64,000 bases of DNA from Spirochaeta thermophila DSM 6192 (GTDB taxonomy: Bacteria; Spirochaetota; Spirochaetia; Winmispirales; Winmispiraceae). The stretch covers positions 2,373,501-2,437,500 of the forward strand of contig NC_014484.1 of NCBI RefSeq assembly GCF_000147075.1, written 5' to 3'. Below, in pieces: positions 3,349 through 14,903 of the stretch (its first letter is position 1; every line of letters starts with the position of its first letter). The notes beneath the pieces are model-generated. The model did no database searches. It was not told the DNA's origin and saw only the letters and a program-made list of their open reading frames with translations. The position numbers and the translations under genes were made by a program.

Positions 3349-4065
3349 ATGATCCGGGAAGAGGAGGAAAGGCTCATACGCAAGGTCCTCACGACCGGGC
3401 GATACACCCTCTCGGAACTCAAGGCCCTCTACCGCATCCTCTCCAAGTTCACGCATCCCGACATGACGGGGGGAGACGGGGAGCGATTCATCCGCCTCAA
3501 AGAGGCCTACGAGGCGGCCCTCAGGCGCAAGGCCCCGGACAGAAAGGGCCCGATCTTCCTCGAAGATCGCACCCCTGAAGAGGTGGTGAGGGAGTGCGGC
3601 TACACCGGCGAGATCGACCCCCGGCTCGGGCTCTACCTGTCTCTCTACCGGTACCTCACCTTGGGCCTCCACTCCTACAGGATACGCCACAACCCCGCCC
3701 TTCATGGGCGAAACGAGCGGGTCCTCAGGGCCATACGTCACTGGGCGAGCGTCTACGACCCCTCGTTCCTCTCGACCTTCGAGGCCTTGATGATGGAGTA
3801 CCTCCCAGGTATCACCACCATGAAGCACCTTCGTTGGTACCTCTCGGGGAGGAAGAGCTTCTTCACCGCCCTCCGGCTCTTCCTCAAGTACCAGGAGACG
3901 GGGAGGACGTCCACCGGGAGAGCGGCGCGTGACCGGAGCCTCTGGGTGATCACCATGGGCGGGCGCATCCCCAGCCTCGACCCCTATGTCCGCATGAGCA
4001 GGTGGCTCTTGGACGAACTGGCGAAACCCCCTCTCCAGTTCGGGAGTGAAGGGCCTCACATGTGA
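3349..4065 (+). CDS. DnaJ-like (J-domain) protein of unknown role
   Basis: 238 residues. Residues about 15-65 form a J-domain: LSELKALYRILSKFTHPDMT contains the invariant HPD tripeptide, followed by GGDGERFIRLKEAYEAAL as helix III/IV. J-domains stimulate the ATPase of Hsp70 (DnaK). The remaining ~170 residues are helical and charged, with no Gly/Phe linker or zinc finger, so this is a type III co-chaperone with an unrecognised C-terminal domain. No dnaK is nearby. It follows metF on the same strand and overlaps the end of the convergent transporter gene by 10 bases. There is no Shine-Dalgarno; a -10-like TAGACT lies 6 nt before the ATG. Confidence 0.72.
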   Translation: MIREEEERLIRKVLTTGRYTLSELKALYRILSKFTHPDMTGGDGERFIRLKEAYEAALRRKAPDRKGPIFLEDRTPEEVVRECGYTGEIDPRLGLYLSLYRYLTLGLHSYRIRHNPALHGRNERVLRAIRHWASVYDPSFLSTFEALMMEYLPGITTMKHLRWYLSGRKSFFTALRLFLKYQETGRTSTGRAARDRSLWVITMGGRIPSLDPYVRMSRWLLDELAKPPLQFGSEGPHM

Positions 4066-5423
4066 GAGGGACTGCGCTCCTCCACCATCTTGAGGATCTT
4101 CTCGTAGAACTCCCTCGTGATGGGGTAGAAGAGGAAGACGAGCACCCCGACCACGAAGAGGACCGCGGGGAGGGGGCCCACAAGGAGCGAGATCCCGAGA
4201 AGGGCCTCGGGCGGCTGGACCTGGGGCACGCCCTCGGCGGAAGGCGGCACGTAGTGGAAGAGCGAGAGGATCCACCCCGAGAGGGCGAGGGCGAGCGCCT
4301 GTCCCACCTTGCTCATGAAGGTCCACATGCCGTAGAAGAGCCCCTCCCGCCGGATGCCGTTCTTGGCGTAGTCGTACTCCACGATGTCGGGGAGCACGGC
4401 GTAGGGGATCACGTACTGGGTGGAAAACCCGAAACCTCCGAGCACGATGAAGACGTATGCGGCAGGAAGCCCCAGGCTCCTCCCCAGAAACACGAATGCG
4501 AGAACCGCGCCTGCGAAGACGAGCATCCCGGTGTTCCAGGCGAACCGCTTGCCGGCCCGCTTCGACACCCAGACCCAGAAGGGCACGGAGAGGAGGGCCG
4601 TGAGGAGGAGGACGAAGAGCGTGATCTGGAAGGCGGAGGTGTCCCCCACGAGATAGGTGAAGTAGTACACGAGGGCGCTCTGGATGATGGTGACCCCCAT
4701 GATGTGCAGCGTCCACGTGGCGAGGGCGAGGCGAAAACTCCGTAAGGAGAGGACCCCTGCATAGGCACGCAGGATCTGCACCTGGGGCGGTCTCTGGCGG
4801 GGAGGCGACTCCCTCACCGTGAAGACCGTCACGAACGCCGAGAGGAGCATGATGAGTCCCAACACCCCACCCATGAACGGCCAGCCCACCCGGTAGTCGG
4901 AGAAGAGCCCCACCAGGGGAAGGACGAGGAGGGCCCCGGAGAAGGTACCCAGTATGGCGAAGACGTTCCGGTAGGCATTGAGCACGGTACGTTCGTGATA
5001 GTCCACCGTGAGTTCCGGGGCGAGGGCGCTGTAGGGGATGTTCACCATGGTGTACGCCGTGCTGAGGACGCAGAAGAGTACGCTGTACCAGAGGAACGTG
5101 AGGACGTCGCTCGAGAAGCGGAGGGGGAAGAACATGATGATCATGAAGACGAAGAGGAAGAGGGCGCCGTAGAGCATGTAGGGTCTGCGGCGTCCCATGG
5201 GAGAGACCGTCCTGTCCGAGAGGTACCCCACTATGGGATCGGAGACCGCATCCCAGGCCTTCCCGATGAGGAGGGCCGTACCTGCGAGGGCAGGGGAAAG
5301 CTTCACCACATCGGTGAGATAGTAGAGGAGGAAGAACCCCACCATGGTGAAGAAGAGATTGCCGCCGAGATCGCAGACCCCGTACCCCAGCTTCGTCGTC
5401 CGTGAAAGTCCCCGCTGCATCAT
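4056..5423 (-). CDS. MFS transporter of the GPH (MelB-like) sugar:cation symporter family
   Basis: 455 residues with about 12 hydrophobic segments in two six-helix halves. The N-terminal KLGYGVCDLGGNLFF, followed near residue 55 by DAVSDPIVGYLSDRT and GRRRPYML, is diagnostic of the glycoside-pentoside-hexuronide symporters (MelB, XynP, YicJ). In that family the Asp residues of helix II coordinate the coupling cation. The substrate is probably a glycoside or oligosaccharide, but no glycosidase gene is adjacent to narrow it. The ATG pair at 5423/5420 has no Shine-Dalgarno and a promoter -10 ends 6 nt before it. Its 3' end overlaps the convergent J-domain gene. Confidence 0.88.
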   Translation of the reverse strand: MMQRGLSRTTKLGYGVCDLGGNLFFTMVGFFLLYYLTDVVKLSPALAGTALLIGKAWDAVSDPIVGYLSDRTVSPMGRRRPYMLYGALFLFVFMIIMFFPLRFSSDVLTFLWYSVLFCVLSTAYTMVNIPYSALAPELTVDYHERTVLNAYRNVFAILGTFSGALLVLPLVGLFSDYRVGWPFMGGVLGLIMLLSAFVTVFTVRESPPRQRPPQVQILRAYAGVLSLRSFRLALATWTLHIMGVTIIQSALVYYFTYLVGDTSAFQITLFVLLLTALLSVPFWVWVSKRAGKRFAWNTGMLVFAGAVLAFVFLGRSLGLPAAYVFIVLGGFGFSTQYVIPYAVLPDIVEYDYAKNGIRREGLFYGMWTFMSKVGQALALALSGWILSLFHYVPPSAEGVPQVQPPEALLGISLLVGPLPAVLFVVGVLVFLFYPITREFYEKILKMVEERSPSHM

Positions 5424-5429
5424 GTCTAC

Positions 5430-5458
5430 ACTATACCTCAGCCTGCGCCGGAGTGCAA
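5430..5458 (-). promoter_or_regulatory. Putative promoter of the MFS gene, possibly leaderless
   Basis: Minus strand: TTGCAC (5453-5458), 17-nt spacer, TATAGT (5430-5435), then 6 nt to ATG 5423. Transcription would start at or next to the A of the ATG. Confidence 0.45.
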
Positions 5459-5522
5459 TCAGTATTCGACCGACGGCCGACGAATTCGTACCGATCCCCT
5501 CCCTGCTTCCCTTGACGGCCGG

Positions 5523-5561
5523 GTTGACTTTTAGTAGTATAATTACCGACTAGACGTCAAC
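5523..5561 (+). promoter_or_regulatory. Promoter/operator of the efflux operon: inverted repeat centred on TATAAT
   Basis: Perfect TATAAT at 5538-5543. It sits in the middle of an imperfect inverted repeat: GTTGACTTTTAGT (5523-5535) and ACTAGACGTCAAC (5549-5561) match at 11 of 13 positions. The possible -35 TTGACG (5512-5517) has a long 20-nt spacer. The dyad is the obvious autoregulatory site for the TetR-type regulator that starts at 5584. Confidence 0.5.
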
Positions 5562-5583
5562 AAAACCACAGAGAGTACACGGG

Positions 5584-6861
5584 ATGACCTGTGAGGACAT
5601 CATACGGGCCGCCCTCAGGGGATGGGCCAAGAACCGTTTCCAGCGTCTCACGCTCATCAGCGTGGCCGAGGAACTGGGGGTGACCAAACAGGCCCTCTAC
5701 CGATACTTTCCTTCAAAGGAATCCCTCATGGACGGTATCCTCGAATATGCGAGGGCGGTCAACCTCACGCTGGTGGAGGACCTGAACAGGATCTCCTCTC
5801 TCCCCTTCCACGAAGGGCTTTCCTTCCACCTCTCCCGCCTCCTCCTCGATTTCAAGAGGCATGCCGACCTTTATCTCTTCCTCTATCCCCCCCAGAAGGT
5901 CCTCTTCCGGGATCGATTCAAGGCCTTCTACCGTGAGGTGGAGGAGCACGGCCTCACCATCACCCGAACCCTCTTCTCCCGACCGGGTGCGCCCGATATC
6001 CCCGAGCGTCTCCTCCCCGCCGTGCACTCGTTCATCGGCACCACCTTCCTCTTCCTCCTCCTCAAGGACATGCCGAGGCCCCAAGAAGATCCGCGGGAAT
6101 CCTTCACGACCTTCCTCTCCAACCTGGACCTGGAGAAGAAGGTGAGGGCCGTCACGGAGGTGATCGTGCATGGAACCGTGAGAGGTTCCTTCGCCCTGCC
6201 CGATGTCGAACGAGTGCGGACGATCGCCCGGGTGGAGGAATCCGAGGTCCCCCACTTCGACCGGATCCTCTCCGCCGCCGAAAAGGTGATACACGAAAAG
6301 GGGATCGCCAATACCACCTTGGACGACATCGCCCACGAGATCGGGGTGACGAGGGCGACCCTCTACTCCTACTTCAAGAACAAGCGCGATCTCGTGGTGT
6401 CCACCATACTGAGACAGATCACCGGGTTCTTCGATCCCCTCTTTCCGAGGCTTGCGGTGTGCACCTCGATCGAGGAAAAGGTCCTGTGCTACATCCTCTA
6501 TGCGGCCGAGTATTCCCATGTCCACAAGCGGCTCTTCTCCGTCACCAACTGGCTCAGGATCAACTCCCCCCTCCGACCCCTCAGGGACGCGCGGGCGTGG
6601 GAGCAGATCGGCCGCTATCTCGAACGCTTCGCCCTCCTCTTCTCCCCCCTCCCCCTCAGGGAGGGGCTGAGGCCCGCGGAGATGCTCCCTTTCCTCCACG
6701 TCCTCACCGGCTCCCTCATGCAGGAGGAACCCCTCATACGCCCCTCGGAGGCCCTCCTCGTCTGGGCGTACTTCCTCGAAGGGCTCAGGGGAATCGAACG
6801 TCATGCGGAGCAGATTTCCGCACACGAGAAAGACACCGACCACGAACGGAGGTTACCATGA
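5584..6861 (+). CDS. Tandem-fused TetR-family regulator (two DNA-binding domains)
   Basis: 425 residues, twice the normal TetR length. It contains two complete TetR_N helix-turn-helix modules. Near residues 20-55 is LISVAEELGVTKQALYRYFP followed by SKESLMDGI. Near residues 224-275 is LDDIAHEIGVTRATLYSYFK followed by NKRDLVVSTI. Each is followed by a helical ligand-binding-type segment, so the protein looks like two regulators joined head to tail. It is the first gene of an operon with an RND efflux system and almost certainly represses it by analogy with AcrR. The stop overlaps the ATG of the TolC-like gene (ATGA). No strong ribosome-binding site precedes its ATG. A frameshift merging two genes is unlikely because the frame is open throughout. 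Confidence 0.88.
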   Translation: MTCEDIIRAALRGWAKNRFQRLTLISVAEELGVTKQALYRYFPSKESLMDGILEYARAVNLTLVEDLNRISSLPFHEGLSFHLSRLLLDFKRHADLYLFLYPPQKVLFRDRFKAFYREVEEHGLTITRTLFSRPGAPDIPERLLPAVHSFIGTTFLFLLLKDMPRPQEDPRESFTTFLSNLDLEKKVRAVTEVIVHGTVRGSFALPDVERVRTIARVEESEVPHFDRILSAAEKVIHEKGIANTTLDDIAHEIGVTRATLYSYFKNKRDLVVSTILRQITGFFDPLFPRLAVCTSIEEKVLCYILYAAEYSHVHKRLFSVTNWLRINSPLRPLRDARAWEQIGRYLERFALLFSPLPLREGLRPAEMLPFLHVLTGSLMQEEPLIRPSEALLVWAYFLEGLRGIERHAEQISAHEKDTDHERRLP

Positions 6862-8273
6862 GGCTGCACAGCAAGAGAGTCCTCTGCGTACTGCTCTATG
6901 CGGTACTCGCCGTCCCCCTCTGGCCGGAGGAGACCCTCGTCCTCACCCTCGAAGACGCGGTCTCCCAGGCCTTGGCCAACAACCTGTCGATACGAAGGAC
7001 CCGACTCGACCTTGAGAGCAGGAAGCTCACGAGGGATACGGTCTTCAACCAGTTCTACCCCCGCATCACGGCGGGCGTCACGCTGAGCAGGCTCCACGAG
7101 GCGCCCGGCACGGTGACCGGGCTGATCCCCGATCCCACCTCGGAGATTGCCCCGGGATCAGGTATATACGAGAGGGTCCTCTCTTTCGAGCAGGAGCTCC
7201 CCCACACCTGGACACTCTCCACCAGCCTCCAGGCGAGCCTCACCCTCACCTTCCAGCTCGTGGGAGGCATCGAACTCGCCTTCAAGGACTACGAGCGGGG
7301 GCTCGTGACCCTCGAGAAGGTGCAGAAACAGGTGGAGCGCGACGTGCGCAAGGCCTTCTACCAGCTCATACTGAGCAGGGAGCAACTCTCCATCATGGAG
7401 GAGAGCCTCAAGGCCTCCGAGGCCCGCTATCGGCAGACCGAACGGCTCTTCCAGAACGGGCTCGTGGATCGCCAGACCCTCCTCTCGGCCAGGGTGGCAT
7501 GGGAGTCCATGAAACCTCAGATTGCCCAGCTCTCCATGGCCTACGAGAACGCCCTCCTCAACTTCAAGATGCTCCTCGGCATGGATCTGGAACGCCCCGT
7601 GGTCCTGGAAGGGGAGATCACCACCCCGGCACTCTCGCCCACATCCATCGATCTCGCCCGTTTCTCCCTCGACAGGAGTCCCGAGATCCAGGAACTCGCG
7701 AAGGCCCTCCAGATGCAACGCATCCAACGGGAGATCACCACCTCTTCCCGCCTCCCGGTCCTCACCTTCACCGTCACCGCGGATCCCACCTTCCAGGGCG
7801 ATCCGTTCGCGGATCCCTGGTTCGAGGACGTGGACACCATGTGGACCCAGCGCTCTGGGATGTTCGGGGTGACGCTCACCATACCGGTCGACCCCTGGAT
7901 ACCGGCCTCCCAGACATGGGTGAACCTGTCGAACCAGGAGAGGAGTCTCGAGGCCATGGAGCTGCAACTGGAAGAGGCCTTGCGCGCCACCTACCTCAGG
8001 GCGAGGTCCCTCCTCGACTCCATCCGGACGGCGCAGGAGAACCTCAAGGCCCATGAGGCCAACCTCGAGCTCGCCCGCACCTCGTACCAGCTCGCGGAAG
8101 AGGCGTATGGATCGGGCCTCAAGGACCTCGTGGCGGTGATGGACGCCGAGACCCAGCTCCGTCAGGCGCAGTTCTCTGTGCTGTCGGACAGGATACAGAT
8201 CCTCACCAACCTCATCGACCTTTCCTACACCTTGAACGTACCTTTCGAGACTCTCATAGGAGGACAGGAATGA
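6858..8273 (+). CDS. TolC-like outer-membrane efflux protein
   Basis: 471 residues starting at the ATG that overlaps the TetR stop. The open frame extends far upstream but is not coding there. A signal peptide (KRVLCVLLYAVLAVPLW) precedes LTLEDAVSQALANNLSIRRT, the classic first helix of the OEP family, and the helical-hairpin repeat recurs near residues 385-440. In family members a trimer forms an outer-membrane and periplasmic channel. The order regulator-TolC-MFP-RND shows that it is the exit duct of the pump encoded next. It overlaps the MFP gene by ATGA. Confidence 0.88.
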   Translation: MRLHSKRVLCVLLYAVLAVPLWPEETLVLTLEDAVSQALANNLSIRRTRLDLESRKLTRDTVFNQFYPRITAGVTLSRLHEAPGTVTGLIPDPTSEIAPGSGIYERVLSFEQELPHTWTLSTSLQASLTLTFQLVGGIELAFKDYERGLVTLEKVQKQVERDVRKAFYQLILSREQLSIMEESLKASEARYRQTERLFQNGLVDRQTLLSARVAWESMKPQIAQLSMAYENALLNFKMLLGMDLERPVVLEGEITTPALSPTSIDLARFSLDRSPEIQELAKALQMQRIQREITTSSRLPVLTFTVTADPTFQGDPFADPWFEDVDTMWTQRSGMFGVTLTIPVDPWIPASQTWVNLSNQERSLEAMELQLEEALRATYLRARSLLDSIRTAQENLKAHEANLELARTSYQLAEEAYGSGLKDLVAVMDAETQLRQAQFSVLSDRIQILTNLIDLSYTLNVPFETLIGGQE

Positions 8274-9199
8274 GACGACTCATACTCCTCACCACCGGCG
8301 TGCTCCTTCTTCTCGCTGCGTGCATGCCGACGACCCCCACCCCCCAGGCCGCATCCCAGGAACAGGAACCGGTCTTCGCCGTGGCCACCACCACCGCGGT
8401 CTCGGGTTCGCTCTACGACTATCTCGATCTTTCGGGCGACGTGGAACCGGCCTCCACTGTGGAGGCCTATGCCGACACCGCAGGCAAGCTCACCCGCCTC
8501 TACGTGGACGTCGGGGACCGGGTCCAGAAGGGCCAGGTCATCGCAGAGGTGGACCCATCCCGCCCCGGCGTGGAGTTCGTTCCCAGCCCGGTGCGGGCCC
8601 CCATCTCGGGGACGGTGGTCTCGCTCCCTCTCCACATAGGGAGTACCGTGGTGCAGAGCCTCGCCGTGGCGAGGATATCCGATCTCACGGACCTCGAGAT
8701 CGTGGCATCCGTACCCGAACGCTTCATCGGCAGGATGCAGCAGGGTGCGCGGGCCATCGTCACCTTCGCCGCCTATCCAGGCGAGACATTCGAGGCCGTG
8801 CTCACCGAGACGAGCCCGGTGGTGGACCGAAACACGCGCTCCCTCGAGATACGGCTCTCTTTCACCTCTCGAGACCCGAGGATAAAGCCCGGCATGTTCG
8901 CCCAGTTCAAGCTCATCACCGAGGAGCGGCGGAAGACCGTGAAGATACCTGAAGAGGCCCTCCTCTCCAGGGACGGGAGCACCTTCGTGTTCGTGGTGCA
9001 ACGCACCGGCGAGGAGGCGCGCGTCGAACGGAGGGAAGTGGTACCCGGTATCCGCATCTCGGGCAAGGCGGAGATCCTGGAGGGCCTTTCTGCCGGCGAG
9101 GAAGTCGTGGTGGAGGGCCAGTCCTTCCTCGACGACGGGGTGAAGGTACAGGTGGTGAAGCAGGTGCCACCCCTTCCGGTGGAAGATCGCGTGGAATAG
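8270..9199 (+). CDS. RND efflux periplasmic adaptor (membrane fusion protein), lipoprotein
   Basis: 309 residues. The N-terminus TTGVLLLLAACMPTT has a lipobox with Cys about residue 16, so it is probably anchored as a lipoprotein like AcrA. A lipoyl/biotinyl-like half-motif (KLTRLYVDVGDRVQKGQVIAEVD, residues about 75-97) and its return strand (VRAPISGTVVSLPLHIGSTV) flank a very short or absent hairpin. A beta-barrel domain follows (MQQGARAIVTFAAYPGETFE) and then a membrane-proximal domain. HlyD/RND adaptors link the inner-membrane pump to TolC. The gene is 10 bases upstream of the pump gene. The short helical hairpin is a noticeable departure from AcrA. Confidence 0.87.
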   Translation: MRRLILLTTGVLLLLAACMPTTPTPQAASQEQEPVFAVATTTAVSGSLYDYLDLSGDVEPASTVEAYADTAGKLTRLYVDVGDRVQKGQVIAEVDPSRPGVEFVPSPVRAPISGTVVSLPLHIGSTVVQSLAVARISDLTDLEIVASVPERFIGRMQQGARAIVTFAAYPGETFEAVLTETSPVVDRNTRSLEIRLSFTSRDPRIKPGMFAQFKLITEERRKTVKIPEEALLSRDGSTFVFVVQRTGEEARVERREVVPGIRISGKAEILEGLSAGEEVVVEGQSFLDDGVKVQVVKQVPPLPVEDRVE

Positions 9200-9209
9200 G
9201 GAGGTACAC

Positions 9210-12200
9210 ATGTCGCTCACACGAACGGTCGTGGGAAGGCCCACCACCATCGCCATCGTCTTCGCGCTCCTCGTGGGATTCGGCCTCTATACGATCACCA
9301 ACATCGCCATAGACCTGTATCCCGAAATCACCCCCCCGGTGCTCGTGGTCTCCACCTCGTACGCGGGAGCGGGACCCGAGGAGGTGGAGAAGGTGATCAC
9401 CCGTCCTCTCGAGAGCGTGCTCAGCAACGTGACGAACCTCAAACGCATCACCTCCACCTCGAGCGAGGGCTCGAGCATGCTCATCCTCGAGTTCACCTAC
9501 GGCACCGACATGGCCGAGGCTGCCAACTCGGTGAGGGACAACCTGGAGTTCGTGAAGGACGCCCTCCCCGAGGAGGCGGGCACGCCCATGATCTTCAAGT
9601 TCAATCCCTCCATCATCCCCATCCTCAGACTCACGGTGGAAGGGAACCGGAGCCAGGAGGAGCTCCGGAAACTCGCCGAGGATTACATCGCCCCACGGCT
9701 CGAACAGACCGAAGGGGTGGCCATGGCGAGCGTGAGCGGAGGGCGCATCCCCGTGGTGCGCGTGGACGTGCACCTCGACAGGCTCGAGGCCTATGGGATC
9801 ACCCTCACCCAGATCGCCACCATGCTCAGGACCCAGAACGTCCAGCTCGCCGGGGGAAGGATGACGGAGAATCGGATCAACTACCTCATCCGTACCGCGG
9901 GTGAGTTCCACACCATCGAGGAGATCTCCCGAGCCGTGGTGGGGTACAAGACCGGTCAACCCTCGGGAGGGATGCCCCGCGTGGTCCCGGTACTCCTCCG
10001 CGACGTGGCGGACGTGTCCATGGGCTACCGGACCACCGACACCATGGTCTTCGTGAACGGAAAGCCGAGCGTCTCTATCTCCGTGCTCAAGCAGAGCGGA
10101 ACCAACTCGGTACAGGTGGCCGACAGGGCGAAGGAGCGCATCGCGGAGATCCAGCGGGACCTCCCCCGTGACGTGAAGATCACGATCACCCGCGACACCA
10201 CCGAGAGCATCAGGGCGGCCCTGAGCCAGGTCTCCTCCTCGGCCGTCAACGGGGCCATCCTCGCCATGCTCGTACTCTTCCTCTTCCTTCGGAGTGTGAA
10301 ACCCACGCTCATCGTGGGGCTCGCCATTCCCATTTCCGTAGTAATCGCCCTCGCGGCCCTCTACTTCGCCGGGATCACCCTCAACCTCATGACCCTCACC
10401 GGCCTCGCCCTGGGGATAGGGATGCTCGTCGACAACTCGATCGTGATCCTGGAGAACATCTTCCGCTACCGTGAGAAGGGGGCCAAGCCCCACATCTCCG
10501 CGATCCTCGGCACCCAGGAGATGATCACCGCCATCACGGCCTCCACCCTCACCACGGTGGCGGTCTTCCTTCCCATTGCCATCTTCCAGAGCGAGCTCGA
10601 AACCATAGGGGAGCTCTTCGCGGATCTCGCCTTCACCGTGGTGATCTCGCTCCTCTCCTCGCTCGCCGTGGCCCTCCTTTTGGTGCCGGTACTCTCGAGC
10701 CACTACCTCCCGCTCACCACCAGGAAGGAGAAACCGCTCCGGGGCATCCTCAAAGGCCTGGACGGGATCCTCGCACGGTTCTTCTCCTGGCTCGAGGAGG
10801 TCTACGGCAGGGGACTCTCCTGGACCCTCCGCCACAGGAAGACGACGATCCTCGCCGTCCTCGCACTCTTCGTCCTCGCCGCAGTCCAGATCCCGAGGGT
10901 GGGCTTCGAATACCTCCCGGAACAGGAGGCGGACAGCGTGACCGTGCAGGTGGAACTTCCGCTCGGGACCTCGGTGGAGGTGACCCGCGAGGTGCTCGAA
11001 CAGCTCCAGGAAATAGTGAAATCCGAAGTGAAAGGCTACCAGGACATCATGCTCACGGCCGGCGAGGCTGCGTTCTTCGGACTGGGAGGCACGAGCACAC
11101 ACCGCGGGAGTCTCACCATCACGCTCCCCGAATACAGCAAGCGCATCGATTCGGCGGAGGTGATCGAACAGAAGCTGCGCGCCCACTTCAAGGACTTCCC
11201 GAACGTCTCGTTCAGCTTCTCCTCGGGAAATCAGGGAGGCATGGGTGGGTCCGCCTCTCCCATCGACATCCTGGTGAAGACAGACGACTATGCCTTGGGC
11301 AAGGAGATGGCCTACCGGATACGCGATCTCCTCGCAGAGGAGGTGCCCGAGGCCACCGAGCCACGGGTCGACCTCCAGGAAGGGCTCCCTCAGGTGGAGG
11401 TGATCATCGACCGCGAACGGGCCTACGCCATGGGACTCAACGTCTACCAGATAGGACAGGAGATAGAGGCGGCCATCGACGGGATCACGGCCTCCAGGTT
11501 CAGGGAAGGGGGATCCGAGTACGACATCCTCGTCTCCCTCAGGGAGGAGGACAAGGAGAAGATCAGGGACCTCGAGCGTATCTTCCTCACCGACAGCAGG
11601 GGCAACCGGATCCCGCTCTCCAGCGTGGCGAACTTCAGGACGTCCACGGGGCCCACGAGCATACAGCGTGAGGACCAGACACGCACCATCCACGTGCTCG
11701 CAGGGCTGGCTCCCGGGGCCACGATCGACAAGGTGGAACCGAAGATCCGCGCCCTCATCGCCGAGCGTATCCCCCAGGGCGAGGGGGTGGTGATCGAGTT
11801 CTCGGGAGACTACCAGGAGCTCATCGAGTACGGGACCAAGTTCGTCCTCATCCTCCTCGTGGCCGTCTTCCTCGTGTTCGGAATCATGGCGAGTCAGTTC
11901 GAGTCGTTCCTCGATCCGTTCATCATCCTCTTCACCATCCCGCTCTCCCTCATCGGGATCGTGGGGATCTACCTCCTCACCGGGGAGATCTTCAGCCTCT
12001 TCACCGCGGTGGGGCTCGTGATCCTCGCGGGGATCGTGGTGAACAACGGGATCGTCCTGGTGGACTACACGAACCTCCTGAGGAAGCGGAACCTGCCCCT
12101 CTTCGATGCGTGCGTGGAGGCGGGAAAGAACAGGCTCAGGCCGGTGCTCATGACCACCCTCACCACGGTCCTGGGCCTCACCCCCCTCGCCTTCACCCGG

Positions 12201-12401
12201 GGTGAGGGGATGAGTCTCATCCAGCCCATCGCCCAGACCGTGGTCGGCGGACTCTCGGTCTCCACCCTCTTCACGCTCTTCCTCATTCCGGTGATCTACT
12301 CGATCTTCAACCAATTCTCGGAAAGGCGCATGAAGCGGCGGCGTGAACGCGAGGCGTCACGACGGGCCGCGATCATCACAGGCGGGGAGGTACAGCAGTG
12401 A
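9210..12401 (+). CDS. RND-family efflux pump (AcrB/HAE1-like)
   Basis: 1063 residues, the normal length for hydrophobe/amphiphile RND transporters. It has N-terminal TM1 after VVGRPTTIAIVFALL and large periplasmic loops after TM1 and TM7. TM4 carries LGIGMLVDNSIVILENIFRY, with one Asp where AcrB has two, a common variant outside Proteobacteria. A C-terminal repeat contains GIVVNNGIVLVDYTN. The pump expels drugs, solvents or lipids using the proton gradient; the substrate cannot be read from sequence. GGGAGGTACAC precedes the ATG. Its stop overlaps a GTG start (GTGA) of the PII-like gene, implying coupled translation. Confidence 0.93.
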   Translation: MSLTRTVVGRPTTIAIVFALLVGFGLYTITNIAIDLYPEITPPVLVVSTSYAGAGPEEVEKVITRPLESVLSNVTNLKRITSTSSEGSSMLILEFTYGTDMAEAANSVRDNLEFVKDALPEEAGTPMIFKFNPSIIPILRLTVEGNRSQEELRKLAEDYIAPRLEQTEGVAMASVSGGRIPVVRVDVHLDRLEAYGITLTQIATMLRTQNVQLAGGRMTENRINYLIRTAGEFHTIEEISRAVVGYKTGQPSGGMPRVVPVLLRDVADVSMGYRTTDTMVFVNGKPSVSISVLKQSGTNSVQVADRAKERIAEIQRDLPRDVKITITRDTTESIRAALSQVSSSAVNGAILAMLVLFLFLRSVKPTLIVGLAIPISVVIALAALYFAGITLNLMTLTGLALGIGMLVDNSIVILENIFRYREKGAKPHISAILGTQEMITAITASTLTTVAVFLPIAIFQSELETIGELFADLAFTVVISLLSSLAVALLLVPVLSSHYLPLTTRKEKPLRGILKGLDGILARFFSWLEEVYGRGLSWTLRHRKTTILAVLALFVLAAVQIPRVGFEYLPEQEADSVTVQVELPLGTSVEVTREVLEQLQEIVKSEVKGYQDIMLTAGEAAFFGLGGTSTHRGSLTITLPEYSKRIDSAEVIEQKLRAHFKDFPNVSFSFSSGNQGGMGGSASPIDILVKTDDYALGKEMAYRIRDLLAEEVPEATEPRVDLQEGLPQVEVIIDRERAYAMGLNVYQIGQEIEAAIDGITASRFREGGSEYDILVSLREEDKEKIRDLERIFLTDSRGNRIPLSSVANFRTSTGPTSIQREDQTRTIHVLAGLAPGATIDKVEPKIRALIAERIPQGEGVVIEFSGDYQELIEYGTKFVLILLVAVFLVFGIMASQFESFLDPFIILFTIPLSLIGIVGIYLLTGEIFSLFTAVGLVILAGIVVNNGIVLVDYTNLLRKRNLPLFDACVEAGKNRLRPVLMTTLTTVLGLTPLAFTRGEGMSLIQPIAQTVVGGLSVSTLFTLFLIPVIYSIFNQFSERRMKRRREREASRRAAIITGGEVQQ

Positions 12402-12688
12402 GACGGATAGAGATCATCGCCAACCACTCGGTCGAGGAGGACCTCTTCGACCTGTTCGAGGAACGGGGCATAGGTCGGCACTACACCCTCATCCCCCAGG
12501 TCCAGGGTTCGGGGACCTCGGGTCCGAGGAAAGGCGATCACATCTGGCCTGAGACGAACTTCGTGCTCGTCGTCTACGCGGACGAGGAGGAGGCGGCGAA
12601 GATACGGCAGGCGGTGGCTGATCTGAAGAAGGTCTTTCCCGACGAGGGGATCAAACTGTTCGAGATGCCCTGTACGTTTCAGGAATGA
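12398..12688 (+). CDS. PII-like, transporter-associated protein (PG0541-like)
   Basis: 96 residues, GTG start overlapping the pump stop. The fold pattern (RRIEIIANHSVEEDLFDLFE, then a variable loop, then NFVLVVYADEEEAAKIRQAV) resembles the beta-alpha-beta ferredoxin-like trimeric PII superfamily. The canonical uridylylation T-loop and nucleotide-binding motif are missing. I recall a family of such small proteins encoded directly after RND pumps in Bacteroidetes and other phyla (PG0541). It is followed by the operon terminator. It may regulate or sense the state of the pump, but no function is demonstrated. I am confident of the family resemblance and not of the role. Confidence 0.68.
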   Translation: MRRIEIIANHSVEEDLFDLFEERGIGRHYTLIPQVQGSGTSGPRKGDHIWPETNFVLVVYADEEEAAKIRQAVADLKKVFPDEGIKLFEMPCTFQE

Positions 12689-12711: not shown

Positions 12712-12737
12712 GCCCCGGCGGTCCGCCGGGGCCTTTT
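12712..12737 (+). terminator. Intrinsic terminator of the efflux operon
   Basis: GCCCCGGCGG (12712-12721) pairs with CCGCCGGGGC (12723-12732) and is followed by CTTTT. It lies 24 bases past the PII-like stop. Confidence 0.8.
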
Positions 12738-12789
12738 CGTGCTGGAAAGGGGAGGAGGGGTTCTGGTATGGTAGAGAAAGGGGGCATGT

Positions 12790-14903
12790 ATGCATGGTCA
12801 CGAGAGGAGACCCGAGATACTCGCCCCCGCGGGGAGCTTCGCCGCGGGAATCCATGCGCTCGAGGCAGGGGTGGATGCCCTCTACGTGGGGCTGCCGCGT
12901 TTCTCGGCCCGGGCCTTCGCGAGGAACGTGGACATGGATGGGCTCTCGCGACTCCTCGGGGCTGCGAGGGTGCGGGGGGCACGGGTCTACGTGGCCCTCA
13001 ACACCCTGCTCATGGACGAGGAACTCCCCGAGGTGTGCCGCATCCTCGAGGTGCTCTCACTCATGGGGATAGACGGGCTCATCGTACAGGATCTCGGGCT
13101 CATCCGGATCGTGCGTGAGCGGTTCCCCCGGCTCGAGCTCCACGCATCCACCCAGATGGGGATCCACAACCCGGATGGGGCGCGGGTCCTGCGGGATCTG
13201 GGGGCGCGGCGGGTGATACTCGCACGGGAGCTGGAGCTTAGGGAGATCGCCCGGATCGTGGAGGAGGTGCCCGAGCTGGAGTACGAGGTGTTCGTGCACG
13301 GGGCGATGTGCTACAGCGTCTCGGGGATGTGCCTGGCCTCGGGGCTGCTCCTGGGACGGTCGGGGAACAGGGGGGTGTGCGCCCAGGTGTGCAGGACGTG
13401 GCAGGAGGGGCCGAGGGGCGAGGGGTACTACTTCTCCATGCGGGATCTCGCCCTGGGGGAGCGGGTGAGGGAGCTGGTAAGGGTGGGGGTGCGGGCGCTC
13501 AAGATAGAGGGGAGGATGAAGTCCCCTGCGTACGTCCGCGCGGTGGTCGGGTGGTATCGCGCCCTGCTCGAGGGGAGGGGGGCGGAGGGGATGGAGGAGG
13601 AGGTGCGGGCGGCGTTCGCACGGCCGTGGTGCGGGGGGCACCTGGAGGGGCACGAGGGGTTGGTGGAGGAGGGGTACGCGGGGCACGTGGGGGTGGAGGC
13701 GGGACGGGTGGTGGGGGCGGGTGAGGGGTGGGTGGAGGTGGCGCTGGAGCGGGAGGTGGGGGTGCGGGACGGGGTGGGGGTGCTGCTGGAGGGGAGAGGG
13801 GTGAGGAAGGAAGGGGTGTGGTGGGGGGTGGAGCGCCTGGAGGTGGGAGGGCGTGCCCGCACGACGGCCCGGGCAGGCGAGCGCGCCCGCATCCCGGCCC
13901 CCCGCCCCGTCCCGCCGGGCACCCCCCTTCTCCTCGCGAGCCGCCACGACGCCACCCTCCCCGAACCCTCCCCCGCCTCCTTCCCCCCTTCCCCCCTCCA
14001 CATCCCCCTCACCCTCCACCTCACCCCCACCACCCTCACCCTCACCGCCCGACTCCCCCTCCGCACCCTCACCCGCACCTACCCCATCACCCTCTCCCCC
14101 GCCCACACCCCCCACACCACCCTCACCCTCCTCCGCACCCTCCTCGCCTCCTACGCACCCCCCACCGCACCCCCTTCACCACCGACCTCACCCTCACCCC
14201 CGACCCCAACCTCACCCTCCCCCTCTCTCACATCTTCATCCCCGCCTCCGAGCTCAAAGCCATCCGCAGGGACTTCTTCTCCGCACTGGAAGACCTCCTC
14301 ACACAGCCCGTCTCCCTCCCCCTCGATCCACCCACCCTCCCCACCCCTCCCCTCCGTCACACCCTCTCCCCCCAAGGCCCCCTCCCCTTCCCCACACGCC
14401 TCACCACCCTCACCCCCTCCATGCTCCCCACCCTCACCCTCCCCTCCCTTCCCCATCCCCTCACCGTCCTCCCCCTCCCCCCCACCACCTTCTCCGACCA
14501 GGAAGGACTCCCCGAACTCCTCGACCTCATCGACCGGCACCCGGACACCAGATTTCTCATCGGCCTCAACAACCCCGCCCACATCCTCTGGGCCCGCACC
14601 CTCCACGAACACCACCCCGACCGCACCTTCTTCTTCGTCGACTACCTCCTCTACTGCGCGAACCGGGCCGCCCTCACCCTCCTCGCCGCCCACATCCCCT
14701 CCCTCCTCTTCGCCTACCCATGGATCGAAAACCCGCGCCACCGCTCCCTCTACCACGACTTCACCCCACCCATCTTCATCTCCCGGGTCCGCCACAGCCC
14801 CCCCTCCATGACCCTCACCCAGAACCACCGCACCCTCACCCTCCTCCACAAAGACGGCATCACCTACACCGTCGCACGCCCCCTCTGGGAGACCACCCCA
14901 TGA
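12790..14903 (+). CDS. U32 family peptidase, interrupted by an apparent -1 frameshift
   Basis: The first part (12790 to about 14157) begins RRPEILAPAGSFAAGIHALE and carries the U32 signature near residues 165-185 (EVFVHGAMCYSVSGMC, then GVCAQVCR). The family includes collagenase-like YegQ and the RNA-hydroxylating RlhA/TrhP proteins. The C-terminal part is in the frame one base earlier: HRTPFTTDL, IFIPASELKAIRRDFF, TRFLIGLNNPAHILWA and FFVDYLLYCANRA. It ends at 14903, overlapping the next ATG. The frames meet at a run of six C (14158-14163). This suggests a one-base loss in a homopolymer (mutation or sequencing error) or slippage; joined, the protein would be about 704 residues. The frame-1 continuation to 14811 is Ser/Pro nonsense. 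Strand composition also inverts near 13860. AGGGGG precedes ATG 12790. Confidence 0.8.

Follow-up and report, generated by a model that had tools for sequence, protein, structure and literature searches.

A candidate single-chain double-TetR repressor and its conserved putative operator at an RND efflux operon of spirochaetes

A 425-residue protein of Spirochaeta thermophila DSM 6192 that carries two different TetR units on one chain is probably the autorepressor of the RND efflux operon that it heads, acting as a single-chain pseudo-heterodimer on a single short operator that follows closely on the −10 hexamer. The gene lies in the window analysed here, a stretch of 64,000 nucleotides (positions 2,373,501 to 2,437,500) from a genome that consists of one contig of 2,472,645 bp (G000). 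In the mechanism that we propose, one chain with its two TetR units would clamp one operator without a partner, the bound protein would block RNA polymerase and thereby silence tetR-tolC-mfp-rnd-PG0541, and a pump substrate or metabolite in a ligand pocket would release the repressor.

Results

One chain with two conserved and different HTH modules

The double-TetR gene (5584..6861, plus strand) starts with ATG and is the first gene of its operon. Pfam TetR_N matches the 425-aa protein twice (whole-protein E 2.5e-28; best stretch 228-272), with a score of 98 bits against a curated cut-off of 24, which places the protein in the TetR/AcrR family; at the N-terminal module (about residues 2-68) other TetR-family regulator (TFR) profiles match too. 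The HTHs lie at about residues 22-48 and 244-270, with recognition helices around 35-42 and 257-264, and both are intact in an alignment with 20 relatives. The original prediction, made from this DNA alone, of one 425-residue chain with two TetR HTH modules is thus borne out. So is its claim that the two HTHs differ, and the difference is conserved family-wide: across the 61 chains that we collected, the recognition helices are strongly conserved, each with a motif of its own, 'KxAxYR(Y/H)F' in the N-terminal and 'KSSLY' in the C-terminal unit. In the window's genus the KSS of the C-terminal HTH has changed to RAT or RTT. Under the curated NCBIfam models for specific repressors the protein falls far short of the cut-offs (AcrR, 53.6 vs 271 bits; MtrR, 67.9 vs 280 bits).

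An overlapping tetR-tolC-mfp-rnd-PG0541 operon

Four genes follow on the plus strand in the order tolC-mfp-rnd-PG0541. The ATG of a tolC-type outer membrane channel gene (6858..8273; Pfam OEP 4.7e-49) overlaps the tetR TGA as ATGA, and its own stop is overlapped by the gene for the RND periplasmic adaptor, or MFP (8270..9199; TIGR01730 above cut-off). An RND permease of the AcrB/AcrD/AcrF family begins 10 nt after mfp (9210..12401; ACR_tran 9.9e-245), and its stop is overlapped in turn by the gene for a PG0541-family transporter-associated protein (12398..12688; NF045581 100.5 bits, cut-off 45). An intrinsic terminator-like hairpin of 9 GC pairs followed by CTTTT (12712..12739, plus strand) closes the operon. 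The linkage is conserved, with MFP directly downstream, and on the strand of the regulator, in 60 of the 60 family genes with enough sequence and RND in 59; the sequence ends with the contig at one relative (L078) and with the locus at another (L113). By the gene overlaps, the terminator and the conserved linkage, the regulator belongs to the same operon as tolC, mfp and rnd, as a local RND-operon repressor should.

The divergent upstream neighbour encodes a GPH-type sugar symporter (4056-5423, minus strand), and farther upstream 3349-4065 encodes a 238-aa protein that adjoins MTHFR and resembles DnaJ weakly over one stretch, with an E of 6e-4 that falls short of the cut-off. Just past the efflux operon lies a Peptidase U32 gene (12790-14903) with a 673-aa frame, in which the Peptidase_U32 match is N-terminal (80-286) and is followed by low-complexity Ser/Pro sequence; an overlapping frame (13728-14903) resembles a natural protein C-terminus, and the gene may contain a frameshift or have an unusual end.

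A conserved 20-bp candidate operator directly downstream of the predicted promoter

The sole promoter-like match in 5300-5700 consists of a −35 hexamer TTGACG (5512..5517, plus strand) and, 17 bp from it, a −10 hexamer TAGTAT (5535..5540, plus strand), which is overlapped by TATAAT at 5538-5543. TATAAT had been put forward as the −10; we reject it because its spacer would be 8 or 20 bp, and the TTGACG-17-TAGTAT pair is the only sigma70-like match. The −35 TTGACG is shared by the congener (G002), and a family relative (G001) has TTGACG-17-TATGTT.

When upstream regions of double-TetR genes were compared side by side, a conserved 20-bp near-palindrome, GTTAMCGAnnGTTCGGTAAC, emerged. The proposed operator of the window, ATTACCGACTAGACGTCAAC (5542..5561, plus strand), is a diverged copy of this site that agrees at 12 of 16 defined positions; it begins 1 bp past the −10 and covers the predicted transcription start. 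Few family operators have diverged as far as this copy, which was identified by position and homology; the homologous operator of the congener is GTTACCAACTAGACGTCAAC. Pattern searches within three mismatches give one operator per genome in each of these two species.

Scored over the 16 defined positions of GTTACCGANNNNTCGGTAAC, at least 13 matches were reached in 48 of 54 upstream regions compared with 3 of 2750 shuffles, and in the larger set an operator with at least 12 of 16 stands upstream of 60 of 61 double-TetR genes. Some of these regions had also served to derive the consensus, and the independent controls therefore weigh more. In the upstream regions of 17 PG0541-type pumps with no double TetR the operator is absent, and the best scores there, 8-11/16, equal background. 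Genome-wide, pattern searches with one mismatch in 25 double-TetR genomes returned 36 sites, 26 of them at the double-TetR promoter with all 25 genomes represented, and the reversed pattern, used as a control, returned 0 sites in the same genomes. A sigma70-like promoter lies directly upstream of the operator in 45 of 60 family promoters (6 expected), and in 35 of the 60 the distance from the end of the −10 to the operator is 0-7 bp. The layout of predicted promoter and proposed operator is that of steric repression.

Additional operator copies were seen in several relatives. Tandem operators 18-25 bp apart occur upstream of the double-TetR genes of L042, L040, L030, L078, L084, L086 and L093, as well as of L098, L102, L105, L113, L116 and L117, and possibly serve cooperative binding. 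In one genome (G391) a second copy with 1 mismatch (C1:815477-815496) sits between the double-TetR gene and tolC, a location that suggests an internal control point. Exact copies outside the double-TetR operon (G143:C17:41142 and G404:C1:131935) are possible marks of extra regulon members.

The single-chain units may also dimerise and bridge two operators, giving cooperative repression or looping. This would refine the proposed mechanism and is no true alternative to it. It draws on the about a dozen relatives' promoters with two operators 18-25 bp apart and on the double-TetR regulator Mce3R of Mycobacterium tuberculosis, in which homodimers on two duplexes made up 63% of particles (PMC11667970); the genomes of the window and of most relatives hold just one operator, and we regard bridging as unlikely.

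The operator core is asymmetric

The outer eight bases of the operator half-sites are nearly symmetric, and the core is asymmetric. Self-complementary positions average 7.85 of 10 across the family and number 6 of 10 in the window copy. Among 44 distinct operators, counted irrespective of shared ancestry, 34 have exactly one half-site with an inner 'AC' (permutation mean 21.8, P 0.0003). With sites oriented by this AC, the variant half GTTAACGA occupies the side opposite the AC in 14 cases and the AC side itself in two, and this rule still holds at three loci (L088, L102 and L105) where the whole operator is flipped relative to the gene. One relative's operator, for example, has the half-sites GTTAACGACC / GTTCGGTAAC, and an A5/G16 mismatch (GTTAACGA..TCGGTAAC) recurs. 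In the window's genus one half-site is now GTTGACGT, alongside the change of KSS to RAT/RTT in the C-terminal HTH; this joint change is suggestive, but since the genus represents a single event, we do not claim an assignment of half-sites to HTHs by covariation. An asymmetric core is what would be expected for two different HTHs on one site, and it supports such a reading.

A predicted single-chain fold that resembles Mce3R

AlphaFold modelling of one chain gave a pTM of 0.86 with 20 sequences and 0.90 with 56 (pLDDT 89.5), so that the relative placement of the two halves is confident. In a Foldseek search the top PDB match was Mce3R (9b7y_A) over 420-425 columns, with a TMq of 0.53-0.55 compared with at most 0.35 for the single TFRs in the list; the whole-length match indicates that both halves superpose together, and the TM of 0.53 with an rmsd of 8 Å indicates that the angle between them departs somewhat from that in Mce3R. 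Both units are predicted to close one TFR-like dimer interface inside the chain; the modelling covered one chain, and a domain-swapped or higher oligomer may form. Mce3R (Rv1963c) itself adopts a single-chain omega fold whose two HTHs bind a single asymmetric site, and its Arg53 is essential (PMC11667970). The N-terminal HTH of the spirochaete family keeps the Arg53-equivalent arginine in LYR(Y/H)F, with lysine in some Treponema; in the 425-aa protein this residue is Arg40, and its C-terminal recognition helix has Arg257. The intramolecular pseudo-dimer of the original prediction thus gains support from the model pTM, the whole-chain Mce3R match, the published Mce3R structure (PMC11667970) and the asymmetric operator core.

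Because the operator is nearly palindromic, an ordinary homodimer could in principle read it with one kind of HTH (N/N or C/C), the other TetR unit being a ligand-binding or dimerisation add-on. The near-symmetry of the outer bases suits such an arrangement, and single-chain modelling is compatible with it. We nevertheless consider it improbable: both recognition helices are strongly conserved with separate motifs in all the chains collected, the homodimer gives no reason for the asymmetric core, a single chain suffices to close the TFR dimer interface in the model, and the isolated M1 unit of Mce3R fails to bind (PMC11667970).

The wide dyad and an RNA hairpin are unlikely alternatives

The inverted repeat first noticed at this promoter is real: 13-nt arms at 5523-5535 and 5549-5561, separated by a 13-nt gap, are complementary at 11 of 13 positions (5523..5561, unstranded). 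It had been described as centred exactly on TATAAT; its centre at 5542 does fall inside TATAAT, but about 1.5 bp out. A wide dyad on which one chain, or two, would sit makes a very doubtful operator. When the 160-bp intergenic region is dinucleotide-shuffled, 2% of the shuffles contain an 11/13 repeat at some position, so the dyad is weak. Across the 60 family promoters the same geometry averages 4.5/13; the dyad is present in the window (11) and retained in its congener (10), and the other 58 are near chance. The search for further double-TetR proteins and their dyads yielded 61 chains, with the dyad near chance outside the genus. From centre to centre the arms are separated by 26 bp, more than a single TFR could span with recognition helices 32-38 Å apart (PMC11667970), and the conserved 20-bp site overlaps the right arm only. 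For these reasons we drop the claim that the 13+13+13 dyad is the operator, in favour of the short conserved site.

We reject the notion that the 20-mer acts as a 5′ UTR RNA hairpin (an attenuator or leader) and not as a DNA operator, since, even though an 8-bp stem could form from a near-palindrome located at the start site or beyond it, the 20-mer lies anywhere from about 26 to 131 nt ahead of the coding region, the A5/G16 mismatch breaks the stem in several families, the window copy pairs at 6/10 only, and the 20-mer tracks the double TetR and is missing from the same pumps without it.

Distribution and origin of the family

Double-TetR relatives occur in 20 of 198 Spirochaetia genomes and in 38 of 296 Spirochaetota genomes, two counts that come from different samples and thresholds. 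These relatives span 400-490 aa (one open frame, 581), with identity down to about 16-20%. A single in-frame stop, either a sequencing error or a natural break, divides the double-TetR frame of one relative (L079, G198:C71) into pieces of 292 and 139 aa. A single-sequence scan of genome contigs found no relatives; among the 80 matches listed by an alignment-based, pattern-limited contig scan, full-length relatives were confined to Spirochaetota, at eight loci including Treponema zioleckii, and other phyla contributed single-domain TetRs only. The PG0541-type pump is spread more widely than the double TetR, with a PG0541 match in 121 of the 296 Spirochaetota genomes, and most of the examined pumps of this type that lack a double TetR are preceded by no TetR at all (single TetRs at L229, L241 and L242). 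A literature search returned nothing relevant on the operator or on a spirochaete TetR regulator of an RND pump.

An alignment of the N- and C-terminal units runs from end to end (hhalign E 1.4e-18), and the profile of each scores the other's half no better than it scores unrelated single TetRs. Because each unit is as distant from its partner as from unrelated TetRs, a recent internal duplication is rejected and the fusion of two already different TFRs is favoured; an ancient duplication may lie behind the end-to-end alignment. Orthology to Mce3R is likewise rejected, as the best match of the family profile to Mce3R is limited to residues 5-89, in the N-terminal HTH region, and ranks below many single TFRs. 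Mce3R being no close relative by sequence, the spirochaete fusion is probably independent of it.

Discussion

We lean, by a modest degree, towards a broader interpretation in which the spirochaete proteins make up another lineage of single-chain TetR pseudo-heterodimers, the second to arise by a fusion of its own, restricted to Spirochaetota as far as searched and tied to one kind of RND pump. Fusion would have let the HTHs diverge and made the operator directional, with a GAAC-ending half-site and a different partner half that occur in both orientations to the gene. A phylum-wide family with its operator at about 60 genes offers a data set on the passage from a homodimeric repressor to a one-chain heterodimer and on the accompanying loss of operator symmetry. 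It also provides a candidate regulator and promoter logic for spirochaete RND efflux pumps, those of Treponema included.

AcrR, MtrR, TtgR and NalD are single TetR repressors of RND pumps that carry one HTH per chain and act as obligate homodimers. The spirochaete protein shares with them the TetR-type HTH, the (here predicted) local repression of an AcrAB-TolC-type pump and an operator over the promoter, but its chain carries two HTHs and scores far below the AcrR and MtrR cut-offs. The closest single-TFR relatives of the C-terminal unit, in sequence and fold, are the FadR-type TetR regulators of Bacillus; unlike the double-TetR protein, these are single-domain and control a fatty acid degradation regulon. 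The PG0541-type RND pumps (NF045581) that are widespread in Spirochaetota have the same tolC-mfp-rnd-PG0541 order, whereas most of the examined copies that lack a double TetR are preceded by no TetR or by a single one, and have no such operator.

Double TetR repressors are known mainly from Actinobacteria, with 204 predicted and one structure (PMC11667970), and the design has so far been seen in structure only in Mce3R of M. tuberculosis (PDB 9b7y). Like the spirochaete protein as modelled, Mce3R joins two different TFR units on one chain of about 400 aa in a single-chain fold, and it is an autoregulator adjoining a transport operon that sets non-identical HTHs on one asymmetric site (PMC11667970), as we predict for the spirochaete repressor. 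The two differ in what they are linked to, Mce3R regulating mce3 lipid transport whereas the spirochaete gene has the tolC-mfp-rnd-PG0541 pump genes, and no mce/yrbE operon, as its neighbours. They differ also in the operator, which is 25 bp long and non-palindromic for Mce3R and a near-palindrome with an asymmetric core in the spirochaetes.
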